Below, one piece after another: positions 1,247 to 52,005 of a stretch of 64,000 nucleotides of DNA; position 1 is the first letter of the stretch; every line of letters begins with the position of its first letter. Source of the DNA: Gammaproteobacteria bacterium (lineage in GTDB: Bacteria; Pseudomonadota; Gammaproteobacteria; Pseudomonadales; Azotimanducaceae). Below the pieces are notes generated by a model. It made no database searches, was not told the DNA's origin, and saw only the letters and a program-made list of their open reading frames with translations. Made by a program: the position numbers and the translations under genes. The stretch covers positions 1 through 64,000 of the forward strand of contig JAPOVK010000057.1 in the NCBI GenBank assembly GCA_026708185.1. The letters are read 5' to 3'.

Positions 1247-3262
1247 CTACGAGGCCATCAACTGCCGGTCGCGCAGCGACGCGATCTCGTCGCGCAGGGC
1301 GGCGGCCTCCTCGAACTCGAGGTTGCGGGCCCGCTCGTGCATCTCATCCTCGAGCTTCGCGAGCAGTTTGCCGAGCGCCGCCGGGTCTTCCGGCAGCGCC
1401 TTCTGCCGCTTGCGCTCGGCCTTGCGTCCGCGCGTCTTCGGCATCCCCGGCGCCGCCCGGGCCCCTTCCATGATATCGGGGATCTCCTTGACGATGCCCC
1501 GGGGCGTGATGTTCTGCTCGGCGTTGAAGTCGAGCTGCCTGCGGCGCCGGCGATTGGTCTCGTCGATGGCGGCCTGCATGGAGCCCGTCACCACGTCGGC
1601 GTAGAGGATCGCGCGGCCGTGCAGATGGCGCGCGGCTCGTCCGATGGTCTGGATGAGGGAGCGCTCTGCCCGCAGGAACCCCTCCTTGTCCGCGTCCAGG
1701 ATGGCGACGAGGGAGACTTCGGGCATGTCGAGCCCCTCCCGCAGGAGGTTGATGCCCACGAGCACGTCGAACACCCCGAGGCGCAGGTCGCGCACGATCT
1801 CCATGCGCTCCACCGTGTCGATGTCGGAGTGCAGGTAGCGCACGCGGACCCCGTGTTCATCGAGGTATTCGGTGAGGTCTTCGGCCATTCGCTTGGTCAA
1901 GGTCGTCACCAGGACGCGTTCGCCTGCGGCGACCGTGACGCGGATTTCCTCGAAGAGGTCGTCAACCTGGGTCGATGCCGGCCTTATGTCCACCTGCGGG
2001 TCGACGAGGCCTGTGGGCCGAACCACCTGTTCGACGACGCTGCCGGCGCGATCGCCCTCGTACGGTCCCGGGGTGGCCGAGACAAAGATCATCTGCGGTG
2101 CGAGTCGTTCCCACTCGTCGAATCGCAGCGGCCGGTTGTCGAGTGCGGACGGCAGGCGGAAGCCGTACTCGACCAGCGTCTCCTTGCGGGAGCGGTCGCC
2201 TTTGTACATGCCCCCGAGTTGGGGGACGGTGACGTGCGATTCGTCGACGATAAGCAGCGCGTCCCCTGGCAGATAGTCGAACAGCGTCGGCGGCGGCTGT
2301 CCCGGCTCCCGCCCCGACAGGTAGCGCGAGTAGTTCTCGATGCCGCTGCAGTAGCCGAGTTCGCGGATCATCTCGAGATCGAAGCGCGTGCGCTGCTCCA
2401 GACGCTGCGCCTCGACGAGCTTGTTGGCGTCCTTGAGCACGGCCAAGCGGTCCGCCAGTTCGTCGCGTATCTCGTCGAGGACCGCGAGGATCCGCTCGCG
2501 CGGCGTCACGTAGTGGGTCTTGGGGAAGACGGTGTAGCGCGGCAGCCGGTTGAGAATCTCGCCCGTCAGCGGATCGAACGTGCCGATGTTGTCGATCTCG
2601 TCATCGAACAACTCGACGCGCACCGCCTCCTTCTCCGACTCCGCCGGGAAGATGTCGATGACATCGCCGCGTACCCGGTACGTGCCGCGCTGGAACGCCA
2701 TGTCGTTGCGCGTGTACTGCAACTCCGCCAGGCGGTTCAGGATGTAGCGCTGATCGACCCGGTCGCCCCGGTCGAGGTGCAGCACCATCCGCAGGTAGGA
2801 CTGCGGATCGCCCAGGCCGTAGATCGCGGACACCGAAGCGACGATGACCGTGTCGCGCCGCTCGAGCAGCGCCTTGGTCGCCGACAGGCGCATCTGCTCG
2901 ATGTGCGCGTTCACCGAGGCGTCCTTCTCGATGTACGTATCGGAAGCCGGCACGTAGGCCTCCGGCTGGTAGTAGTCGTAGTAGGAGACGAAGTACTCGA
3001 CGGCGTTACGCGGGAAGAACTCGCGGAACTCCCCGTAGAGCTGGGCCGCGAGGGTTTTGTTCGGCGCGAGCACGAGCGTCGGGCGCTGCACATTCTCGAT
3101 CACGTTCGCGATGGCGAAGGTCTTGCCTGAACCGGTGACCCCGAGCAGCGTCTGATGCGCCAAGCCCGCCTCGATGCCGTCCACCAACCCGGCAATCGCG
3201 GTCGGCTGGTCGCCAGCCGGGCGGTAGTCCGCGACGACCTTGAAGTCGGCTTGCGCTTGCAT
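1247..3262 (-). CDS. uvrB: Excinuclease ABC subunit UvrB
   Basis: This is the damage-verification helicase of nucleotide excision repair, which takes DNA from UvrA and recruits UvrC. The 671-residue length is typical. Walker A GVTGSGKT is at residues 41-48. The tyrosine-rich beta-hairpin that threads the damaged strand ([16 protein letters not shown]) is near 90-105. A DESH box and the helicase motif QTIGRAARH follow. The C-terminal UVR domain that contacts UvrC is intact, around residues 630-665 ([11 protein letters not shown]). The ATG is at 3260-3262. The gene stands between a hypothetical gene and the sodium channel; no SOS box was recognised upstream. Confidence 0.98.
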
Positions 3263-3294
3263 GGCGAGAGTTTACGCCACCGGGCGCCGGCCCG

Positions 3295-4128
3295 TCAGTT
3301 CGGCGAACCTCCACGGAGCGCACCGCCCGAGGGTGAACTGAGGGCCTCGCGCAGCGCCGTCACCTCGCCGCGCAGCAAGGCGATCTCGTCGCGCAGCGTC
3401 GCCGCGTCGGCATGGACGTGCTCCTCCACCTCGGCGGCCTCCTGCTCGTGCTGGGTCTGCATGGCATCGACGATGACACCGATGAACAGGTTGATGACGG
3501 CGAAGCTCGTGATCACGATGAAGGGCACGAAGAAGGCCCACGCGTAGGGATACTCGTCCATCACCGGTCGGACGATCCCCATCGACCAGCTCTCCAGCGT
3601 CATGATCTGGAACAGCGTGTACATGGACTCGCCCACCGACCCGAACCAAGGGGCGAAGGTGCTCCCGAAGAAGCTCGTGGCGATCACCGCCGCGACGTAG
3701 AAGATGATCGCGATCAAGCCGATGATCGGGGCCATGCCCGGGATCGCCAGCACCAGGGCTTGGGTCACGCGGCGCATCTGCGGCACGACGGAGACCAGGC
3801 GCATGATGCGCAGGATGCGCAATGCGCGCAGCACCGAGAACGGGCCGCTGGTCGGTACCAGGGCGATGCCAACCACCAGGAAGTCGAAGACGTTCCACGG
3901 ATCACGGAAAAAGGCCCGGCCCCGACCGTAGAGCTTCGCGGCGATCTCCAGCACGAAGACGGTCAGCACGAACGCGTCGAAGACGGCCAGGGGTTGCCCG
4001 TAGGCCGCCCGAATCGCCGGGGACGTCTCAAGCCCGAGTGTCACGGCGTTGAGAACGATCAGCGCCGTGATGAATGCCTGCGCCCGCTTACCCTCGACCA
4101 ACGTCGCGATCCTGGTCCTCGCGCTCAT
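3295..4128 (-). CDS. Bacterial voltage-gated sodium channel (NaChBac/NaV type)
   Basis: The single-domain ion channel subunit has 277 residues and should assemble as an inner-membrane homotetramer. Six hydrophobic segments are visible. The S4 voltage sensor reads LRALRILRIMRLV with arginines every third residue. The pore loop carries TLESWSM, matching the selectivity filter of NaChBac-like sodium channels. After S6 (INLFIGVIVDAM) comes an acidic and then heptad-like tail, as in the neck and coiled-coil of NaV channels. The frame extends 22 codons further upstream, but the ATG at 4126-4128 has GGGAGGCGGC directly before it and is the better start. It is divergent from the hydrolase at 4186. 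Confidence 0.93.
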   Translation of the reverse strand: MSARTRIATLVEGKRAQAFITALIVLNAVTLGLETSPAIRAAYGQPLAVFDAFVLTVFVLEIAAKLYGRGRAFFRDPWNVFDFLVVGIALVPTSGPFSVLRALRILRIMRLVSVVPQMRRVTQALVLAIPGMAPIIGLIAIIFYVAAVIATSFFGSTFAPWFGSVGESMYTLFQIMTLESWSMGIVRPVMDEYPYAWAFFVPFIVITSFAVINLFIGVIVDAMQTQHEQEAAEVEEHVHADAATLRDEIALLRGEVTALREALSSPSGGALRGGSPN

Positions 4129-4185
4129 GCCGCCTCCCACCTCGAAAAAGCGGCGAACTATACTGCTTGGAGCCAGGAGCCCGTC

Positions 4186-5352
4186 ATGAAGCACAGCGTC
4201 AACCTAGGCAACCGCGTCCTCATCGCGGCAATCCTCGCGATGGCGGCGACATCAACTGCGGCAGGCGAGGACGAACCGCCGCGCGTCGAGGCGGATGGCA
4301 CTGTTCACGTGCCGGCGTTCGATCTTCCCGAGACGGCCTACCTGAGCGACGAGTCGCGCGCGGCGATGAAGCACTTCCGCGAGGTCTACGGCCCCGAATT
4401 CGGCCAGTTCTCGCAGGGCTGCGCCAGCTTCAGCGAGGTGGCCGACGACCCCGCCGCGATGCGCGCGGCCCGGGATTGCGTTGCCGCGGGCTACTACCGC
4501 ACGGCCATCTACAAGGACACCATCGCCAAGCATCCGGTCGAAATCACGAACGAGGAGGTTGCGGGCGTCTACACCGAGGTCTTCGTCCCCAAGGACGGGA
4601 TCGCGGTGTCCAACGAGAACAGAGTCCTGATCAGCATCCACGGCGGCGGGTTCGTTGTCGGCGCTCGCTACTTCAGCCACACCGAGGCCATGCAGGTCGC
4701 ACACATGGGAGGCTACAAGGTGGTCAGCCCGGACTACCGCATGGCACCCGAGTTCACTCACCCGGCCGGCGTCGAGGACGTGATCGCTGTCTACAAGGCG
4801 CTGCTCGAGGACTACAGCGCAGGCAACATCGGCATCTACGGCTGCTCGGCAGGTGCCATGCTCACCGCGCAGACCGTTGCCCACATCCTCAGCAACGACC
4901 TACCCGTCCCCGGCGCGATCGGTCTCTTCTGCGCCGGGATTCCGACAACGGATCGCGACACGCCCGGCGTCTTCAAGATGGGCCGGAGCGAGAGCGCCTT
5001 CCTGGTGTCCGCCATCAACGGCTTCCCGCGGCCGGTCGAGGTGACCGACCCGCCCCAGCCGAGCGGCTACTTCCGGGGAGTCGCCGCGAACGATCCCGTC
5101 GTCGCACCCGGTGACCATGACAACCTGCTGGCCCGGTTTCCGCCCAGTCTGCTCATCAGCGGAACGCGCGACTTCGCCTTGGGCGCCGTCCTCGCCAGTC
5201 ACAACAAGCTCATTCGCCTAGGTGTCGAGGCCGACCTGCACGTCTGGGAGGGCCTCGGCCATGCGACCTTCGCGTTCAACCCTCGCCTGCCGGAGTCGGA
5301 CGAAGTGCACAACGTGATCGTGCGCTTCTTCGACAAGCACCTCGGCCGCTAG
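4186..5352 (+). CDS. Secreted alpha/beta hydrolase, HSL/esterase family
   Basis: The product has 388 residues and begins with an N-terminal signal peptide (LIAAILAMAATSTAAG). The oxyanion-hole motif HGGGF is followed by the nucleophile elbow GCSAG (a G-x-S-x-G form). The late GTRDF and GLGHATF segments supply the acid and histidine of the triad. This arrangement is typical of hormone-sensitive-lipase-like carboxylesterases, which hydrolyse esters; the substrate cannot be told. A cysteine pair before the fold may form a periplasmic disulfide. The ATG at 4186 has CAGGAG just upstream. It ends 8 bases from the convergent quinoprotein gene. Confidence 0.85.
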   Translation: MKHSVNLGNRVLIAAILAMAATSTAAGEDEPPRVEADGTVHVPAFDLPETAYLSDESRAAMKHFREVYGPEFGQFSQGCASFSEVADDPAAMRAARDCVAAGYYRTAIYKDTIAKHPVEITNEEVAGVYTEVFVPKDGIAVSNENRVLISIHGGGFVVGARYFSHTEAMQVAHMGGYKVVSPDYRMAPEFTHPAGVEDVIAVYKALLEDYSAGNIGIYGCSAGAMLTAQTVAHILSNDLPVPGAIGLFCAGIPTTDRDTPGVFKMGRSESAFLVSAINGFPRPVEVTDPPQPSGYFRGVAANDPVVAPGDHDNLLARFPPSLLISGTRDFALGAVLASHNKLIRLGVEADLHVWEGLGHATFAFNPRLPESDEVHNVIVRFFDKHLGR

Positions 5353-42925: not shown

Positions 42926-44770
42926 ATGGGGGCGCCGCTACCGATCATCGTCGGCTTCGGCGGGGTCAACCCCGCGGGCCGAGTGTCCTTCCACCACGCG
43001 TACCGGCGCACCGTGATCGACGCGATGGACCAAGTATCGGCCGACGACACCTACGCCAGCCTCGCAACGCTGATGAACGTCGAAGGCGACTCGCGCGACG
43101 AGGCGCTACGTCAGCACATGCGCGATCACACCCTGATACGACGCATCGAGTGTTTCGACCCCGAGCGCATCCGCTGGCAGCGCGCCGCACACCTGACGCC
43201 GGTGGACGACGACGGCACTTTGAGCTTCACCTTGCGTGCCCGGGAAGTCCCCGACGAGCTGCCTGACGGCTGGACGACGGTCAGGCGCGAGGACGGCCGG
43301 GTCGAAGTCACGACGCGACGCACGGCCGTGCTCATTCCCGACAGACGCGTGTCCCGCGTGACGTCTGCGGGCCAGGCGCCGTCGGGCTTCGAACCGGGCC
43401 GGTTGTATGCGGCCCGCAGCCACCCGCGCGGGCTGCAACTGTCTGTATACGGCGCCTCCGACGCGGTGCAGTCGGTGGGGATTCCCTGGGACGAGCTGCG
43501 CCGTCACGTCGGCCCCGACCAGTTCGCGGCGTACGCCGGCAGTGCGATGGGCCAACTCGACAACAACAGCAACGGCGGCATGATGCAGGCACCTCTGATG
43601 GGCCGCCGGCCAACGTCGAAACAGGCCGCACTGGGCCTGTGCGAGATGCCGATCGATTTCGTCAACGCGTACGTCATCGGCAGCGTCGGCGCCACGGGCG
43701 GCGTGATCGGCGCCTGCGCGACGTTCCTCTACAACCTGCGCAACGCCGTCCACGATATCCGCGCGGGACGCTGCCGTGTCGCCGTCATCGGCGGTTCGGA
43801 GGCCCCCATCCTGCCCGAGGTCGTCGAGGCTTACCGCACCATGGGCGCGCTCGCCGAGGACGAGGCCCTGATGGCCATCGACGGCAGCGCCGCGGTGGAC
43901 AACCGCCGTGCATGCCGGCCGTTCGCCGAGAACTGCGGGTTCACGCTTGCCGAGGCCGGCGTCTACATGGTGCTGACGGACGATGCGCTCGCAGTCGAAC
44001 TCGGCGCGGACATCCACGGCGCGGTGGCGGACGTCTTCGTCAACGCCGACGGTTTCAAGAAATCGATCCCTGGCCCCGGCGTCGGCAACTACGTCACGGT
44101 CGCCAAGGCACTCGGCCTCGGGCGCGCGATTCTCGGCGAGGAAGCCGTGCGGCAGCGGTCGTACGTACACGCCCACGGCACCGGCACGCCGCAGAACCGC
44201 GTGACCGAGTCGCACATCCTGAACGAGATGGCGAAGACCTTCGGCATCGAACGCTGGAACGTCGCCGCCGTCAAGGCCTACCTCGGACACACGCTGGCCC
44301 CCGCGTCCGGCGATCAGACCACGTCCGCCCTCGGCACCTGGAAATACGGATGGATTCCGGGAATCGCCACGATCGACGAGCCGGCCGATGATGTCCACCA
44401 CAGCCATTTGCGGATCGCCCCGGAACACATCGAGGTGGACCCCGCTGCCGTCGACATGGCCCTGGTGAACTCCAAGGGCTTTGGCGGCAACAACGCCACC
44501 GGGCTACTCCTAGCACCCCACGTGGCCCGCGAGATCATGGCCGCTCGCCACGGCAAGGCCGCGATGACCAAGCACGCGACCCGCAACGAAGGCGTACGGA
44601 CCACCGCGCTCGACTACGACGCAGCCGCGACGCGCGGGGATGCCGAGACGATCTACCGCTACGGCGAAGGGGTACTCGAAGGCACGGATCTCGAGATCAC
44701 CGCCGACGGCATTCGCGTGCCCGGCCACGACGCTTTGGTTTCGCTGGATTTGGACAACCCCTTCGCTTGA
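42926..44770 (+). CDS. fabY: Beta-ketoacyl-ACP synthase FabY
   Basis: FabY starts fatty-acid synthesis by joining acetyl-CoA to malonyl-ACP in organisms such as Pseudomonas aeruginosa that rely little on FabH. The 614-residue length fits FabY and is longer than FabB/F. The catalytic cysteine is in GVIGACATFLYN (Cys264). The two histidines are in HGTGTPQNRVTES (His417) and AVKAYLGHTLAP (His455). The N-terminus IIVGFGGVNPAGR and the large insertion around residues 100-180 are characteristic of this branch. It follows the thiolase closely and is opposite to the carboxylase. Confidence 0.88.
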   Translation: MGAPLPIIVGFGGVNPAGRVSFHHAYRRTVIDAMDQVSADDTYASLATLMNVEGDSRDEALRQHMRDHTLIRRIECFDPERIRWQRAAHLTPVDDDGTLSFTLRAREVPDELPDGWTTVRREDGRVEVTTRRTAVLIPDRRVSRVTSAGQAPSGFEPGRLYAARSHPRGLQLSVYGASDAVQSVGIPWDELRRHVGPDQFAAYAGSAMGQLDNNSNGGMMQAPLMGRRPTSKQAALGLCEMPIDFVNAYVIGSVGATGGVIGACATFLYNLRNAVHDIRAGRCRVAVIGGSEAPILPEVVEAYRTMGALAEDEALMAIDGSAAVDNRRACRPFAENCGFTLAEAGVYMVLTDDALAVELGADIHGAVADVFVNADGFKKSIPGPGVGNYVTVAKALGLGRAILGEEAVRQRSYVHAHGTGTPQNRVTESHILNEMAKTFGIERWNVAAVKAYLGHTLAPASGDQTTSALGTWKYGWIPGIATIDEPADDVHHSHLRIAPEHIEVDPAAVDMALVNSKGFGGNNATGLLLAPHVAREIMAARHGKAAMTKHATRNEGVRTTALDYDAAATRGDAETIYRYGEGVLEGTDLEITADGIRVPGHDALVSLDLDNPFA

Positions 44771-46344: not shown

Positions 46345-47112
46345 TCAGTCCCCGGTAGCAAGCATGGTCCGAACGCGAGCGGCGTCCGCCTCCGTATCGA
46401 CGCCGCCCGGCACCGGCGCCGCCGCCTCGGCTACGGCGATGGCGCGGTCGTGGTCGAGCAGGCGCAGTTGCTCCAGGGCTTCGGTCTCCTCCGAAGGGCT
46501 GGGTGGCCAATGGACGAACTCGCGGAGCGCCGCCACGCGGAAGGCGTAGATGCCGATGTGGCGTTTCCAACCGGTGCCCACGTTGGCAATGTCCGGCACG
46601 TCACTGGCGCTGAAGCCGTCCCGCCACCACGGTATCGGCGCCCGCGAGAAGTAGAGCGCCCGGCCAGCACGGTTGACGACAACCTTGACGATGTTCGGGT
46701 CGAACACGTCCTCGCCGCGGGTGATGGGTTCGTAGAGGGTCGCGACGCCGCACGAACCGTCGCGCAGGAGCCCGGCCACCTGGTCGATCACCGTCGGTGG
46801 GATGAGCGGTTCGTCGCCCTGCACATTGACGACGACGTCGTCGTCGGCCCAGCCTTGGAGTTCGACGACTTCCATGACCCGGTCGGAGCCCGTCGGATGG
46901 TCGTCCCGTGTCATCACGGCGGCCGCAGGTGTGGTAGCGAGGGCGTCGAGCACGCGGGCGTCGTCGGTAGCAACCACGACGTTCTCCGCCGACGACGCCA
47001 AGGCGCGTTCCGCGACGCGCACGACCATCGCCTTCCCAGCGATGTCCAGGAGCGGTTTGCCGGGCAGGCGCGTCGACGCGAAGCGCGCCGGTATGACGAC
47101 CGAGAAGCGCAC
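46345..47112 (-). CDS. kdsB: CMP-KDO synthetase (3-deoxy-manno-octulosonate cytidylyltransferase)
   Basis: KdsB activates KDO with CTP for transfer to lipid A. The 255-residue product has the N-terminal nucleotide loop VVIPARFASTRLPGKPLLDI, then VVATDD and NVQGDEPLIPP with the metal-binding aspartate. YFSRAPIPWWRDG and HIGIYAFR complete the family pattern. It lies 9 bases behind the msbA-lpxK gene, so it is the last gene of the exbB-exbD-msbA/lpxK-kdsB operon. The small Trm112-like gene found here in some relatives is absent. Confidence 0.96.
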   Translation of the reverse strand: MRFSVVIPARFASTRLPGKPLLDIAGKAMVVRVAERALASSAENVVVATDDARVLDALATTPAAAVMTRDDHPTGSDRVMEVVELQGWADDDVVVNVQGDEPLIPPTVIDQVAGLLRDGSCGVATLYEPITRGEDVFDPNIVKVVVNRAGRALYFSRAPIPWWRDGFSASDVPDIANVGTGWKRHIGIYAFRVAALREFVHWPPSPSEETEALEQLRLLDHDRAIAVAEAAAPVPGGVDTEADAARVRTMLATGD

Positions 47113-47121
47113 GCTTACCGG

Positions 47122-50022
47122 CTACCGGCTCTCGATCCGGCGAAAAACACCGCGCTCGGCGAGAAGCTCCTCAAGGAAGTCGTCTACAGGTTCTGCGAAG
47201 CCCACGTCGATCTCGAGGTACCAGCAATGGCTGATCGCCGAGGCGTCGAACGTCTTCAGCTTCTCACCATCCTTTTCCGTCACAACAACGACCTGACCGT
47301 CGCCGGCGACGGCCACGTCTTCGCCGGAGAACACGTGGTGGTCCGGGAACCCCCGCACGGTCGCGTCCAAGCCGATTGCGTCCAAGGTCTCCTGGAACCG
47401 TCTCGGGTTGCCAATGCCGGCGATCGCGACCACAGAATCGAAGCGCGTCACGAAGTCGCCGGGCTCGATACGCTCGCCGCTCGCCAGATTCACGAAAGCC
47501 GTCGCCTGGGCTGCCATCACGGCCTCCCGCTCCACAAGGCCGCAAGCCGCGCCATTGGCGACCACCCAATGGCAGTCGCGCAGTCGCGACACCGGTTCGC
47601 GCAATGGCCCCGCGGGCAGGCAAAGCCCGTTGCCGACCCCGCGTGCGCCATCGACCACGGCGATCTCCACGTCGCGCCGCAAGGCGTAGTGCTGCAAACC
47701 GTCGTCCGCCACAACCACGTCTACGTCGGCGGTTCCGAGCAGTTGCCGCACGGCCCGCGGGCGATCCGGATCGACCACCACGGGGCAGCCGGCGCGACGG
47801 GCGATCATGCCGGCTTCGTCGCCGCACTGGGTCGCTGGCGTCGTCGCGTCGACGACGAGCGGATAGGAAGCGCGACCGCCGTAGCCGCGAGACACCACAC
47901 CGACGGCTAGGCCGCGATTCTTGAGCCAACGGGCGAGCCAGATCACCAGTGGTGTCTTGCCGGTACCGCCTGCGGTCACGTTACCGACGACGATCACCGG
48001 CACCGGGGCCTCCCAGGCCTTGGCTCGGCCGGTGAGGAAGCGCCGCCGGCGGCGCCGAGCGAACCACGCGAACAAAGCGGCGAGGGGGGTGAGTAGCCGT
48101 GGCCAGAACCGATCGCCGTACCAAGCGTCGACGAGACCTCCGAAACGCGCCGTCGCAGTCGGCAGCGTCACCGGCACCCGGCGCGGCTTTGCCGGCGGCG
48201 GCGGGCCACCGCCGTTGTCGAACTGGGACCGGTAGAGATCGGCGTAGACGCCGCCGGCCGCCATCAAGTCCTCGTGCGTCCCGGTCTCGGTGACAGCGCC
48301 ATCCTCGACAACGGCGATTACGTCGGCTTTTTCCACGGTGGACAGGCGATGTGCGATCAGGATCGTCGTGCGGCCGCGCATGACCTCTTCCAGCGCGGCT
48401 TGCACGTGGCGTTCCGAGTGTGCGTCCAGCGACGAGGTGGCCTCATCGAGAATCAGCACGGGCGCGTCCTTAAGCAGTGCCCGCGCGATGGCGACGCGTT
48501 GCCGCTGCCCTCCCGACAGCAGGACACCGTCGTCGCCCACCACGGTGTCGAGCCCGCGCGGCATGGCGCGGATGAACTCATCGGCGTGGGCGCGCCGCGC
48601 CGCTGTGGCGATGGCGTCGCGGCCCGCGCCGGCGAGCCCGCCGTAGGCGATGTTGCTGGCAAGCGTGTCGTTGAACAACGTGACGTCCTGCGACACCAGC
48701 GCGATCTGGCGGCGCAGACTGGCGAGGCGGTATTCACCGAGAGGCTTGCCGTCAAGCAGGATTCGGCCGCTCGTCGGCTCGTAGAACCGTGCGATCAGAC
48801 TCGCCAGCGTCGATTTGCCGGCCCCGGACTTCCCCACCAAGGCGACGGTCTGGCCGGCGCGGATCGTGAAGGAGACATCGTCGAGCACCGCCGGACGCGA
48901 CGGGTCGTAGGCGAAGGAGACGTGCTCGAAGGTGATGTCGCCCGCCACACGGTCCACCTCGACGTTGCCCGCATCCGCCTCCGCCGGCGCGTCGAGTTGC
49001 TCGAAGATCTCCGTCGCCGCGGCCAGCCCCCGTTGCAGACGCGCGTTGACGTCGGAGAGTTTCTTGATGGGATTGGCGAGCATGGCGGCGAAACCGAGAT
49101 AGGCGGCCAGGTCGCCGGGCGACATGCCGCCACCGATGTCGGGCCGGAAGATGAGCCCAACGAGCACGGCCAGCGCAGCCGCGACGATGCACTGGATCAC
49201 TTGCGCGCTGCTCGCCTTGGTGGTCGTCATCTTCAGGTTCTGACGCCGATTACGCTCGCTGGCCGCGCCGAACCGGTCTCGTTCGTAGGACTCGCCCTGG
49301 AAGATCTTGACTTCACGGTAGCCCGCGACCGCCTCCGCGGCGACGTGGGTCACATCGCCCATGGATCCCTGGATGCGTGTACTCAAACGCCTGAAGCGTC
49401 GCGCCGCGTAGCGCACGATCAACCCCACGAGAGGCGCGACCGCGAGGAAGATCAACGTCAGCAACCAGTTGTAGAAGAACATGGCACCTAGGAAGACGAT
49501 CACCTTGAGGACGTCGGAGATCACGATCTTGAGGGCATCCGTGGTGGTGTCGCGCAACTGCGCCGTCGTGAACGTGAGCCTGGAAACCAGCCGCCCGCGC
49601 GCGCTCTCGTCGTAGAACTTGCTCGGCATCAGCAGCAGGCACTCGAACAGCTGCGCACGGATGACGTGGATCGCGCGGAAGGAGATGCGCGCCAGCGTGT
49701 ATTCGCCCAGCACGGCACCGGAGGCGCGGACGAGGGCGAGGCTGAGCATCGCCACCGGGAACTGCCAGATGTAGGCCGGATTGGGGGACGCGACGGCATC
49801 GATGATCTCGCCGAAGACCCTCACGAATCCCATCTCGCCGACCGCCGTCAGCAGGAATCCCAGCAACGCCAGCAAGAACCATCCGAGTTGGTCGGTCACG
49901 TAGCCGAACAGGCGTCGGTAGGTCTGCCAGTCGCCGGTGGCGCGTACGGGCGGAGGGCCGTCGCCGTCGTCGGTCGAATACGCTTCCGGTGGCGTCGGGC
50001 GCTCAGTCTCCGCCATCGCCAT
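47122..50022 (-). CDS. msbA-lpxK: MsbA-LpxK fusion: lipid A flippase joined to tetraacyldisaccharide 4'-kinase
   Basis: One uninterrupted frame of 966 residues encodes two lipid A proteins. Residues 1-600 are MsbA: six membrane helices, Walker A LVGKSGAGKST (396-405), signature LLSGGQRQR (501-508), Walker B VLILDEATSSLD. Residues 602-616 are a glycine-, proline- and basic-rich linker (FDNGGGPPPPAKPRR). From about 628 comes LpxK: its N-terminal helix (WPRLLTPLAALFAWF), the kinase P-loop GNVTAGGTGKT (680-690), VSRGYGGRA and DDGLQHYALRRD. LpxK phosphorylates the lipid A precursor at the inner membrane; MsbA then flips the core lipid. A GTG inside the linker could allow separate LpxK synthesis, but no strong ribosome site precedes it. 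Confidence 0.93.
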   Translation of the reverse strand: MAMAETERPTPPEAYSTDDGDGPPPVRATGDWQTYRRLFGYVTDQLGWFLLALLGFLLTAVGEMGFVRVFGEIIDAVASPNPAYIWQFPVAMLSLALVRASGAVLGEYTLARISFRAIHVIRAQLFECLLLMPSKFYDESARGRLVSRLTFTTAQLRDTTTDALKIVISDVLKVIVFLGAMFFYNWLLTLIFLAVAPLVGLIVRYAARRFRRLSTRIQGSMGDVTHVAAEAVAGYREVKIFQGESYERDRFGAASERNRRQNLKMTTTKASSAQVIQCIVAAALAVLVGLIFRPDIGGGMSPGDLAAYLGFAAMLANPIKKLSDVNARLQRGLAAATEIFEQLDAPAEADAGNVEVDRVAGDITFEHVSFAYDPSRPAVLDDVSFTIRAGQTVALVGKSGAGKSTLASLIARFYEPTSGRILLDGKPLGEYRLASLRRQIALVSQDVTLFNDTLASNIAYGGLAGAGRDAIATAARRAHADEFIRAMPRGLDTVVGDDGVLLSGGQRQRVAIARALLKDAPVLILDEATSSLDAHSERHVQAALEEVMRGRTTILIAHRLSTVEKADVIAVVEDGAVTETGTHEDLMAAGGVYADLYRSQFDNGGGPPPPAKPRRVPVTLPTATARFGGLVDAWYGDRFWPRLLTPLAALFAWFARRRRRRFLTGRAKAWEAPVPVIVVGNVTAGGTGKTPLVIWLARWLKNRGLAVGVVSRGYGGRASYPLVVDATTPATQCGDEAGMIARRAGCPVVVDPDRPRAVRQLLGTADVDVVVADDGLQHYALRRDVEIAVVDGARGVGNGLCLPAGPLREPVSRLRDCHWVVANGAACGLVEREAVMAAQATAFVNLASGERIEPGDFVTRFDSVVAIAGIGNPRRFQETLDAIGLDATVRGFPDHHVFSGEDVAVAGDGQVVVVTEKDGEKLKTFDASAISHCWYLEIDVGFAEPVDDFLEELLAERGVFRRIESR

Positions 50023-50500
50023 CCTCCACCGCTTTCTTGCGAGGGGCAGTGCCCCGGCCCGCCTCTTCGCGGCGGAGGCGCTCCCCGGCTGAGGGCTCGC
50101 GTTCCGTCAGGATGCGGACCTCGGTCAAGCCGCTGCGGCCCGCGGCATCGAGCACGCGCACCACGGCATCGTGGCGGGCCGCGGCGTCGGCCGCGACCAC
50201 CACGCGCTCGCCCGACGCCCTCTCCAGCGCATCGGCCACAGTGCCGACCTGGCCGTCGGGGAGCCGTTGGTCGTTGACCGCGACCATGCCCACGGCGTCG
50301 ACTCGCACCATGATCTCGGCCGCGGCGATTTCACGGGGCGCGCCTTGGCCGTCGGGGAGTTCGACGGCCAGTACCGACTCGCGCTTGAACGTCGTCGACA
50401 CCATGAAGAAGATCAGCAACAGGAATACGACGTCGATCAGCGGGGTCAGTTCGACCGTACTGGCGCCGCGACCCGGGCGGCGGCGACGTCTGAACATCAC
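50003..50500 (-). CDS. exbD: ExbD/TolR-type proton channel accessory subunit
   Basis: The protein has 165 residues. A single N-terminal helix carries the conserved aspartate in ELTPLIDVVFLLLIFFMVSTTF, and a periplasmic domain follows. A charged, basic tail after residue 140 ends in EDGDGGD. ExbD works with ExbB to convert the proton gradient into mechanical work for a TonB- or TolA-like partner. In this gene order (comEC, exbB, exbD, msbA) the pair is conserved in gammaproteobacteria, with an uncertain role. It overlaps exbB by four bases and msbA-lpxK by twenty. Confidence 0.92.
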   Translation of the reverse strand: MMFRRRRRPGRGASTVELTPLIDVVFLLLIFFMVSTTFKRESVLAVELPDGQGAPREIAAAEIMVRVDAVGMVAVNDQRLPDGQVGTVADALERASGERVVVAADAAARHDAVVRVLDAAGRSGLTEVRILTEREPSAGERLRREEAGRGTAPRKKAVEDGDGGD

Positions 50501-51102
50501 GACTGCGGCTCCGGATGCAGGAGATCCGCGAAACGCGTGGCCTGATGCTCCATCGCCACCGTGAGATCGTCGACCTTGCGCAGCAGGTAGCGGTGAAACA
50601 TGAGCGCCGGGATCGCCACCGTCAACCCTGCGGCCGTGGTCACCAGCGCTTCGGAAATGCCCCCCGCCAACACCGTCACCTCCGCAGCTTGGTCGCGCAT
50701 CAGCGCGGAGAAGACACGGATCATGCCGATCACAGTGCCCAAGAGGCCCATCAACGGGCTGATCGAGGCGATCGTGCCGAGCGCGGTCAGATAACGTTCG
50801 AGGTCGTGCACGACCGCACCGGCCGCGTCCTCCATGGCTTCGCGCATGGCGTCACGGCCCCTCGCGGCGTTGTCGAAACCAGCAAGCAGGATACGACCCA
50901 GTGCGCTCGCGGTGCACAGCGAACGCGCGTGGGCCATATCGTCGCCACGCACCGCACCAGCGACGTCGGCCAACAGGTGTGACGGCACGATGCGAGCGCG
51001 GCGCAGTGACCAGGCGCGCTCGATGCAGATCGCCAGCGCGACTACGCTGGCCAACGCCAGCGGCACCATGAGCCAACCGCCAGCTTGGAGGAAGTCGACC
51101 AT
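50497..51102 (-). CDS. exbB: ExbB/TolQ-type proton channel subunit
   Basis: The 201-residue protein has three predicted membrane helices: MVDFLQAGGWLMVPLALASVVALAI at the N-terminus, and IASISPLMGLLGTVIGMI and GGISEALVTTAAGLTVAIPALMF later. The latter two hold the conserved G-T-V-x-G-M and T-T-A-G-L-x-V-A-I-P blocks of MotA/TolQ/ExbB channels. It is the first gene of the minus-strand operon, upstream of exbD. Confidence 0.94.
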   Translation of the reverse strand: MVDFLQAGGWLMVPLALASVVALAICIERAWSLRRARIVPSHLLADVAGAVRGDDMAHARSLCTASALGRILLAGFDNAARGRDAMREAMEDAAGAVVHDLERYLTALGTIASISPLMGLLGTVIGMIRVFSALMRDQAAEVTVLAGGISEALVTTAAGLTVAIPALMFHRYLLRKVDDLTVAMEHQATRFADLLHPEPQS

Positions 51103-51240: not shown

Positions 51241-52005
51241 ATGGGACAAGGAGGCTTGGCCATCAGACCACCGACCCGACGCCTGCTGCCTCTATCCGCC
51301 GTCGCGTTTATCGGCGCCGCGTCCGCAGTTACCAACCCGGCGCTCGACGGCGCAAAGCTGACGGAGCAGACCAGTACCTATCGGATGACGGTCGAGCTCC
51401 CCGACGGAACCGTCGACATGACCGCCAGCACGTCGTGGTCCCGTGCCAACCGCGACGGACAGGATGTCTGGCTCGTGCACCTTGTCAACGACTCTTCGCT
51501 CGGCCGCATGGTCGAAGACATCTATTTGAGGCGCGACGACTTGCGCCCATTGCACCGGACCGTGGAACAGGCCGGCGTGCGGCTTGCGATGGACTACACC
51601 GACGGCGCCGTGCAAGGCCAAGCGTCGTTCCCCGACGGCCAGGACGTGCCGATCGACATCCCCTTGAGTGCGCCGGCCATCGGTCATATGGAGAGCGCGC
51701 TGGCCGTCTTGCCGTTGTCACCAGGTTTCACCGTCGAACTCACCACGTTCGAACCGACCATGCAGATGGAACGACGTTGGCGGGTGGTCGTCACGCGGAC
51801 CGAGACCACAGCGACCCCGGCCGGCACGTTCGACACCTACCGCCTGGAAATCAACGACCCGGAGTCCAAGGGAGCCCCGGGCCTCTACTGGGTCACCCGG
51901 TCTCCACCGCACCACATGGTGCAAAGCCGAACGACGTTGCCCGACACATTCGGCGGGGGCGAGGTCAACGTCATGCTGGACGGCGTCGAAACGCCGACAC
52001 CGTAG
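51241..52005 (+). CDS. Exported DUF3108-like protein
   Basis: The 254-residue protein has a hydrophobic N-terminal stretch (LLPLSAVAFIGAASAVT) that looks like a signal peptide or anchor. Two similar beta-rich halves follow (YRMTVELPDGTVDMTAS and FTVELTTFEPTMQMERR). The RVVVTRTETTATPAGTFDTYRLEI segment resembles DUF3108 outer-membrane-associated proteins. The function is unknown. It lies between exbB and clpB, which are on the other strand. The first 12 residues may be untranslated. Confidence 0.65.
   Translation: MGQGGLAIRPPTRRLLPLSAVAFIGAASAVTNPALDGAKLTEQTSTYRMTVELPDGTVDMTASTSWSRANRDGQDVWLVHLVNDSSLGRMVEDIYLRRDDLRPLHRTVEQAGVRLAMDYTDGAVQGQASFPDGQDVPIDIPLSAPAIGHMESALAVLPLSPGFTVELTTFEPTMQMERRWRVVVTRTETTATPAGTFDTYRLEINDPESKGAPGLYWVTRSPPHHMVQSRTTLPDTFGGGEVNVMLDGVETPTP

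Follow-up and report, generated by a model that had tools for sequence, protein, structure and literature searches.

Does a single open reading frame of a gammaproteobacterial genome encode the lipid A flippase MsbA and the 4'-kinase LpxK as one protein, and if so, what could keep the two together? We addressed this question for a window of 64,000 nucleotides, the whole stretch of DNA analysed here, and for related loci in several samples of genomes. In the window, one frame holds a whole MsbA and, behind it, a whole LpxK, and the fusion is real. With a probability of roughly two in three, and judging from sequence comparison, we read its product as a genuine two-enzyme protein, i.e. an MsbA flippase that would carry an LpxK 4'-kinase on its C-terminal side via a flexible linker.

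The fused frame and its parts

The initial annotation had described an in-frame MsbA-LpxK fusion of 966 residues, and this description is borne out: the frame is open, both families score above cut-off, and relatives are fused as well (Table 1). The NCBIfam model MsbA_lipidA (TIGR02203) matches residues 34-602 with 679.3 bits (curated cut-off 602), while the narrower MsbA model NF008381 is not reached by this half (573 vs 867). Pfam's LpxK match extends over residues 642-953 (E = 5.9e-100; 335 bits vs a cut-off of 27), and the NCBIfam lpxK model (TIGR00682) covers residues 650-929 with 233 bits (curated cut-off 92). A search for a second LpxK gene across the window's own genome found none; the fusion is its sole LpxK locus.

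Table 1. Coordinates of the fusion gene, its parts and its neighbours in the window.
Feature	Residues	Position	Strand	Remark
exbB/tolQ-like gene		50497..51102	minus	4-base overlap with exbD
exbD/tolR-like gene		50003..50500	minus	upstream, 20-base overlap with fusion gene
msbA::lpxK fusion gene	966 aa	47122..50022	minus	ATG start, 966 codons, without internal stop
MsbA half	1-602	48217..50022	minus	TIGR02203 match 34-602
ABC_membrane domain (Pfam) of MsbA half	50-318	49069-49875	minus
ABC_tran domain (Pfam) of MsbA half	380-530	48433-48885	minus
MsbA Walker A GKSGAGKST	397-405	48808..48834	minus	alignment
Linker	603-632	48127..48216	minus	605-624 predicted disordered
LpxK half	633-966	47125..48126	minus	Pfam match 47164-48099
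Predicted helix near LpxK start	640-663	48034..48105	minus	AlphaFold2 model
LpxK P-loop GNVTAGGTGKT	680-690	47953..47985	minus	alignment
kdsB (CMP-Kdo synthetase)		46345..47112	minus	9 bases downstream of fusion gene

The motifs of both halves had been called intact, and indeed the catalytic positions tested are invariant or nearly so in the 56 fused rows of our alignment. For MsbA, the Walker A lysine, the LSGGQ serine, the Walker B glutamate and the H-loop histidine are invariant in 56 of 56 rows. At the LpxK positions K689, D735, D773, D774 and H895, between 54 and 56 rows keep the residue; the exceptions are one X at K689, one locus without D773 and H895 (L017), and two loci with Glu for D735 (L021, L169). 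MsbA position R148 (E. coli numbering), which we take to have a role in the transporter, is a serine in the window. The interior lipid A site retains its basic residues, with an arginine and a lysine at E. coli R78 and K299 (the site positions being numbered on an Enterobacter MsbA); PMC9701195 reports that R78A,K299A disrupts this site. All of the LpxK motifs P-loop, GDE, DDGLQH and FPDH are present in the window protein. Alignment to LpxK of A. aeolicus places the catalytic residues at K689, T690, D735, E736, D773, D774 and H895, which we infer to match K51, T52, D99, E100, D138, D139 and H261 of that enzyme; the roles of the latter are described in PMC6286764.

One fused relative departs from this pattern. 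The LpxK half of locus L017 (genome G018; frame 1456-4530, minus strand) is devoid of the first Asp and the His of DDGLQH, of the Asp and His of FPDH, and of the SRGYGG motif, still scores as LpxK and is the only LpxK match in that genome. Its sequence suggests that an inactive kinase is possibly kept within the fusion; with several catalytic residues absent, it is hard to see the kinase half as required in this genome.

The linker comprises about 30 residues, between the end of MsbA (602) and the start of LpxK (633). Its earlier characterization as a 15-residue proline- and glycine-rich segment fits roughly the first half only: the length is about twice that, and the composition is not kept in many relatives. 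Over 57 fused loci, linker length ranges from 23 to 51 residues and the sequence differs, while the frame remains open throughout. The closest relative found, G007, has both proteins in one open frame with 90% identity; dN/dS between G000 and G007 is 0.10 in MsbA, 0.38 in the linker (just 30 codons) and 0.11 in LpxK. Hence, the linker behaves like translated sequence that is weakly constrained.

An AlphaFold2 model was computed from 45 fused sequences and nine of LpxK alone, 54 in total. Its mean pLDDT is 89.3, with both halves confident and residues 605-624 below 50; at a pTM of 0.63, it does not settle how LpxK sits against MsbA. The MsbA half matches in fold the MsbA structures of P. aeruginosa and E. 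coli. The 50 fold matches listed are all ABC exporters, so that support for the LpxK fold comes from the sequence, which is related to that of A. aeolicus LpxK. In the model, the helix near the LpxK start perhaps equals the amphipathic helix of A. aeolicus LpxK, which is membrane-associating according to PMC6286764.

The fusion gene is part of a tightly packed operon, exbB-exbD-msbA::lpxK-kdsB. Directly upstream, exbB and exbD matches occur in 25 of 32 other fused loci checked; two of the 32 start within the fusion gene itself. A kdsB match is level with the frame's downstream end, or past it, in 31 of the 32. Further along the window, a DUF3108 protein (51241-52005, plus) lies on the strand opposite to the operon, and a 614-aa beta-ketoacyl synthase-like protein (42926-44770, plus) stays under the curated cut-offs of every NCBIfam model matched.

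Distribution among genomes

Other fusions were sought, as had been suggested initially, and many were found among relatives. Our first sample consists of 38 genomes. MsbA and LpxK share one frame in all 25 sampled members of the window's family (f1), a count which includes the window's own genome and G009, cut by a contig end. The 13 genomes from other families of the order yielded no stop-free full-length match to the fusion; the LpxK frame measures 326-387 aa in nine of them, and G028 from family f5 gives a full-length match with a single TAA.

In a larger sample of the window's family, LpxK was detected in 134 of 149 genomes, and for 105 of these 134 the open frame around it reaches 900 aa or more. 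The remaining 29 comprise 14 unfused genomes and 15 in which the frame is cut or interrupted; the DNA was read for 19 of the 29, and the other ten were judged to be cut by position and frame length. Seven of the unfused genomes belong to genus g8 and five to g577, the other two being G956 and G1053. Only an msbA fragment is present in G960 (g577), and no msbA within the stretch of G1053. In four of the 19 genomes read, a contig end cuts the locus; three of them show the fusion, and G1036 is cut within LpxK. The fused gene of G982 (L188) is interrupted in MsbA by a single in-frame TAG, close to where the nucleotide-binding domain begins, and represents either a pseudogene or a sequence error.

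The fusion is still more prevalent in the order of G495, which we take as SAR86 because G495 and G389 group in the tree with records titled SAR86. LpxK scores above cut-off in 71 of 81 genomes of this order, and 70 of the 71 matches lie in frames of 913-966 aa; the last one appears to be cut by a contig end. In two genomes of the order without LpxK, G1142 and G1139, MsbA was matched in a frame of 557 aa and one of 546 aa, respectively. Hence, the premise that the two genes are separate in gammaproteobacteria generally does not stand, since the fusion prevails among the SAR86 matches and in the window's family.

Beyond these groups, the fusion occurs as isolated cases in further families of the class. 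At least 24 of the best 80 named loci by similarity of the LpxK half are fused, including all 11 titled SAR86, in a set that is biased towards fusions. An even sample of the class (369 genomes) contains at least 11 fused genomes, namely ten stop-free full-length matches (G000, G389, G279, G495, G300, G260, G573, G478, G408 and G393, with G279 tentative), whose DNA was read in every case, and G245, and a sample of the phylum (398 genomes) gives, as a lower bound, a stop-free full-length match in G000 and G300 only. Class and phylum counts are minimum values, since a match with one stop could still be a fusion and only some of these were read: the fusion-profile search reads through stops and also counts the stop at the match end, so that zero stops are safe and one is ambiguous. 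G245 is an example, with one stop by the profile, yet an LpxK frame of 913 aa. Counts for f1 and SAR86 therefore use LpxK frame lengths from stop to stop; left out are extra matches below cut-off (G013, G1137, G1165) and the second of two pieces in G1033. Frame length also pointed to fusions in G125 (968 aa) and G578 (950 aa), which were rejected since msbA is read in a different phase from that frame. In family f9, no LpxK match was obtained in five of six sampled genomes (G032, G135, G162, G186, G208), four of which are at least 97% complete.

Origin and retention of the fusion

A FastTree phylogeny of the joined MsbA and LpxK segments, with 121 rows (55 fused, 66 separate), requires at least eight changes between the fused and the separate state, seven of them forced by starred branches; shuffled labels give a mean of about 40. 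A quick search with 61 rows results in six changes, four of them forced. These trees exclude short pieces, duplicate entries and any locus whose stretch holds no msbA, and with their root unplaced the changes stand for gain or loss of the fusion alike. For two groups named after inspection of the tree, topology tests rejected the fused f1 proteins as a sole clade (p-AU 9e-10), and did not reject f1 plus SAR86 as one clade (p-AU 0.645). The former result implies a loss or a second gain of the fusion inside f1. The fusion has come or gone several times, and a single old fusion in the ancestor of f1 and SAR86 is possible.

Genomes with separate genes differ in how these are placed. In G028 (f5) and in G1001, G1016 and G1049 (g8), msbA and lpxK share the same phase and only one stop codon divides them; in G106, the other f5 genome read, and in G984, G1031 and G1060 (g8) they are out of phase, and in G956 and the g577 genomes with both genes the open frames overlap out of phase. 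Loss of one stop codon, the origin proposed in the initial annotation, is plausible and the simplest route to the fusion, but the out-of-phase pairs oppose it as a general rule. The seven g8 genomes (L173-L179) have separate genes and are nested among fused relatives; four are in phase, three of these with a single stop between the genes, and three are out of phase. They are apparent fissions. As 14 of 134 f1 genomes are unfused, some of them nested among fused ones, the join is dispensable.

What is more challenging is to explain why the fusion is retained. One explanation, to which we give slightly less than an even chance, is neutral: close and sometimes in-phase genes lose the stop by chance, the join is tolerated without any functional coupling, and it persists since undoing it needs both a new stop and a new start. 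This account concerns retention and is compatible with a two-enzyme protein. Besides the four single-stop neighbours named above, many single-stop in-phase loci in other families are in line with it (these loci having been fetched because the profile spanned both genes), as are the weak constraint and variable length of the linker and the loss or regain within f1. The high retention in SAR86 and in the window's family, however, speaks against pure chance, and so do the additional isolated cases with eight changes on the larger tree, and the unfused, out-of-phase pairs of G106, G984, G1031 and G1060. Furthermore, at the adjoining junctions exbD and msbA overlap and lpxK and kdsB often lie a few bases apart, yet neither exbD nor kdsB is joined onto the fusion frame in any of the 32 loci checked. 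In sum, selection and chance have nearly equal odds as the reason why the join persists.

We regard it as unlikely that two proteins are made from the fused gene, either because LpxK is also started within the frame or because the linker is cut by a protease. The linker region or the first 20 LpxK codons contain an ATG in 24 of 57 fused loci, and an ATG, GTG or TTG in 53 of 57; the predicted disorder of the linker could open it to proteolysis. However, an ATG with an upstream Shine-Dalgarno-like sequence is found in just one of the 57 loci, and any such start in six, the window having none. This argument is weakened by the fact that Shine-Dalgarno sequences are not required in all bacteria. 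An internal LpxK start was nevertheless rejected as a candidate, as no consistent signal emerged from the 57 loci. A translation start in the linker had been named as evidence against a single chain; the linker of the window has no ATG, and its two GTG codons are without a Shine-Dalgarno-like sequence.

An artefact of assembly or a frameshift that joins two genes is next to impossible and was rejected: although draft assemblies make up most of the data, the window included, and G279 has ambiguous bases in linker and P-loop, the same fusion recurs in many independent assemblies, including the one-contig genomes G012 and G013, with linkers that vary while the frame stays open.

Proposed function and comparison with known systems

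The initial annotation had treated LpxK and MsbA as two successive steps, which they are not. Between LpxK and MsbA, the pathway runs through WaaA, late acylation and the addition of core sugars (PMC6286764 and PMC3087551), and other contigs of the window's genome contain one WaaA-type and two LpxL/LpxM-type genes, the second acyltransferase match being weaker (60 bits). The proposed channelling of the LpxK product to MsbA is rejected as stated, since it would skip these intervening steps. A ratio of 1:1 between the chains follows from the fusion itself. According to PMC6286764, MsbA is less active on early intermediates, E. coli can survive when lipid IVA is what it exports, and no step after LpxK is absolutely required; on the last two points, a link between LpxK and export is not absurd.

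Returning to the two-enzyme protein, we hypothesize the following sequence of events. The stop of msbA was probably lost in the packed operon, giving one chain in which LpxK would be tethered behind the C-terminal nucleotide-binding domain of MsbA, with both activities presumably kept. Dimerization of MsbA would result in a 2:2 assembly, with an LpxK unit next to each of the two nucleotide-binding domains on the cytoplasmic side, where LpxK acts at the membrane surface in any case. The gain, if any, could be a fixed 1:1 dose and the co-localisation of kinase and exporter, which we prefer to a direct hand-over because Kdo transfer and late acylation intervene. Dose and location make up the conservative reading, and coupling the bold one. 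The latter would be a selected hub that links LpxK, as the last indispensable step of lipid A synthesis, to export. In such a hub, the tethered kinase would supply the MsbA dimer with lipid A or sense it there, and its output would control the flippase; alternatively, SAR86-type cells would directly export a lipid A that is under-decorated. We consider this reading improbable.

That the flippase has repeatedly been joined to a kinase from several steps further up the pathway is a hint that the cytoplasmic enzymes of lipid A synthesis are located close to MsbA. Such proximity is hard to test with separate proteins, and a natural single chain offers a direct handle. In addition, one essential gene may be hidden inside another in annotation. 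Open-access titles and abstract openings, among the matches listed, report no natural MsbA-LpxK fusion, and the main text of PMC4921024 mentions neither lpxK, msbA, lipopolysaccharide nor lipid A.

The gene order resembles that of E. coli, whose ycaI-msbA-lpxK-ycaQ operon likewise has msbA followed by lpxK, with co-dependent expression (PMC10328246). MsbA and LpxK of E. coli are two separate proteins, whereas the window encodes one chain. Compared with known MsbA (TIGR02203; PDB 9bd6, 5tv4, 3b5y), the window protein shares the whole transporter and the ABC motifs (residues ~30-602) but bears a kinase at its C-terminus. Compared with known LpxK (TIGR00682; PDB 4ehx, 4lkv), it shares the complete kinase with its P-loop, GDE, DDGLQH and FPDH motifs, but this LpxK has no evident start of its own and is tethered to a transporter. 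The LpxC/FabZ fusion involves other proteins, neither of them a transporter. Described from Bacteroidetes, Chlorobi and Verrucomicrobia (PMC3087551), it likewise joins neighbouring genes, one of them from the lipid A pathway. Both halves of the window's protein are textbook proteins; it is their fused architecture that the listed titles and abstract openings do not report.
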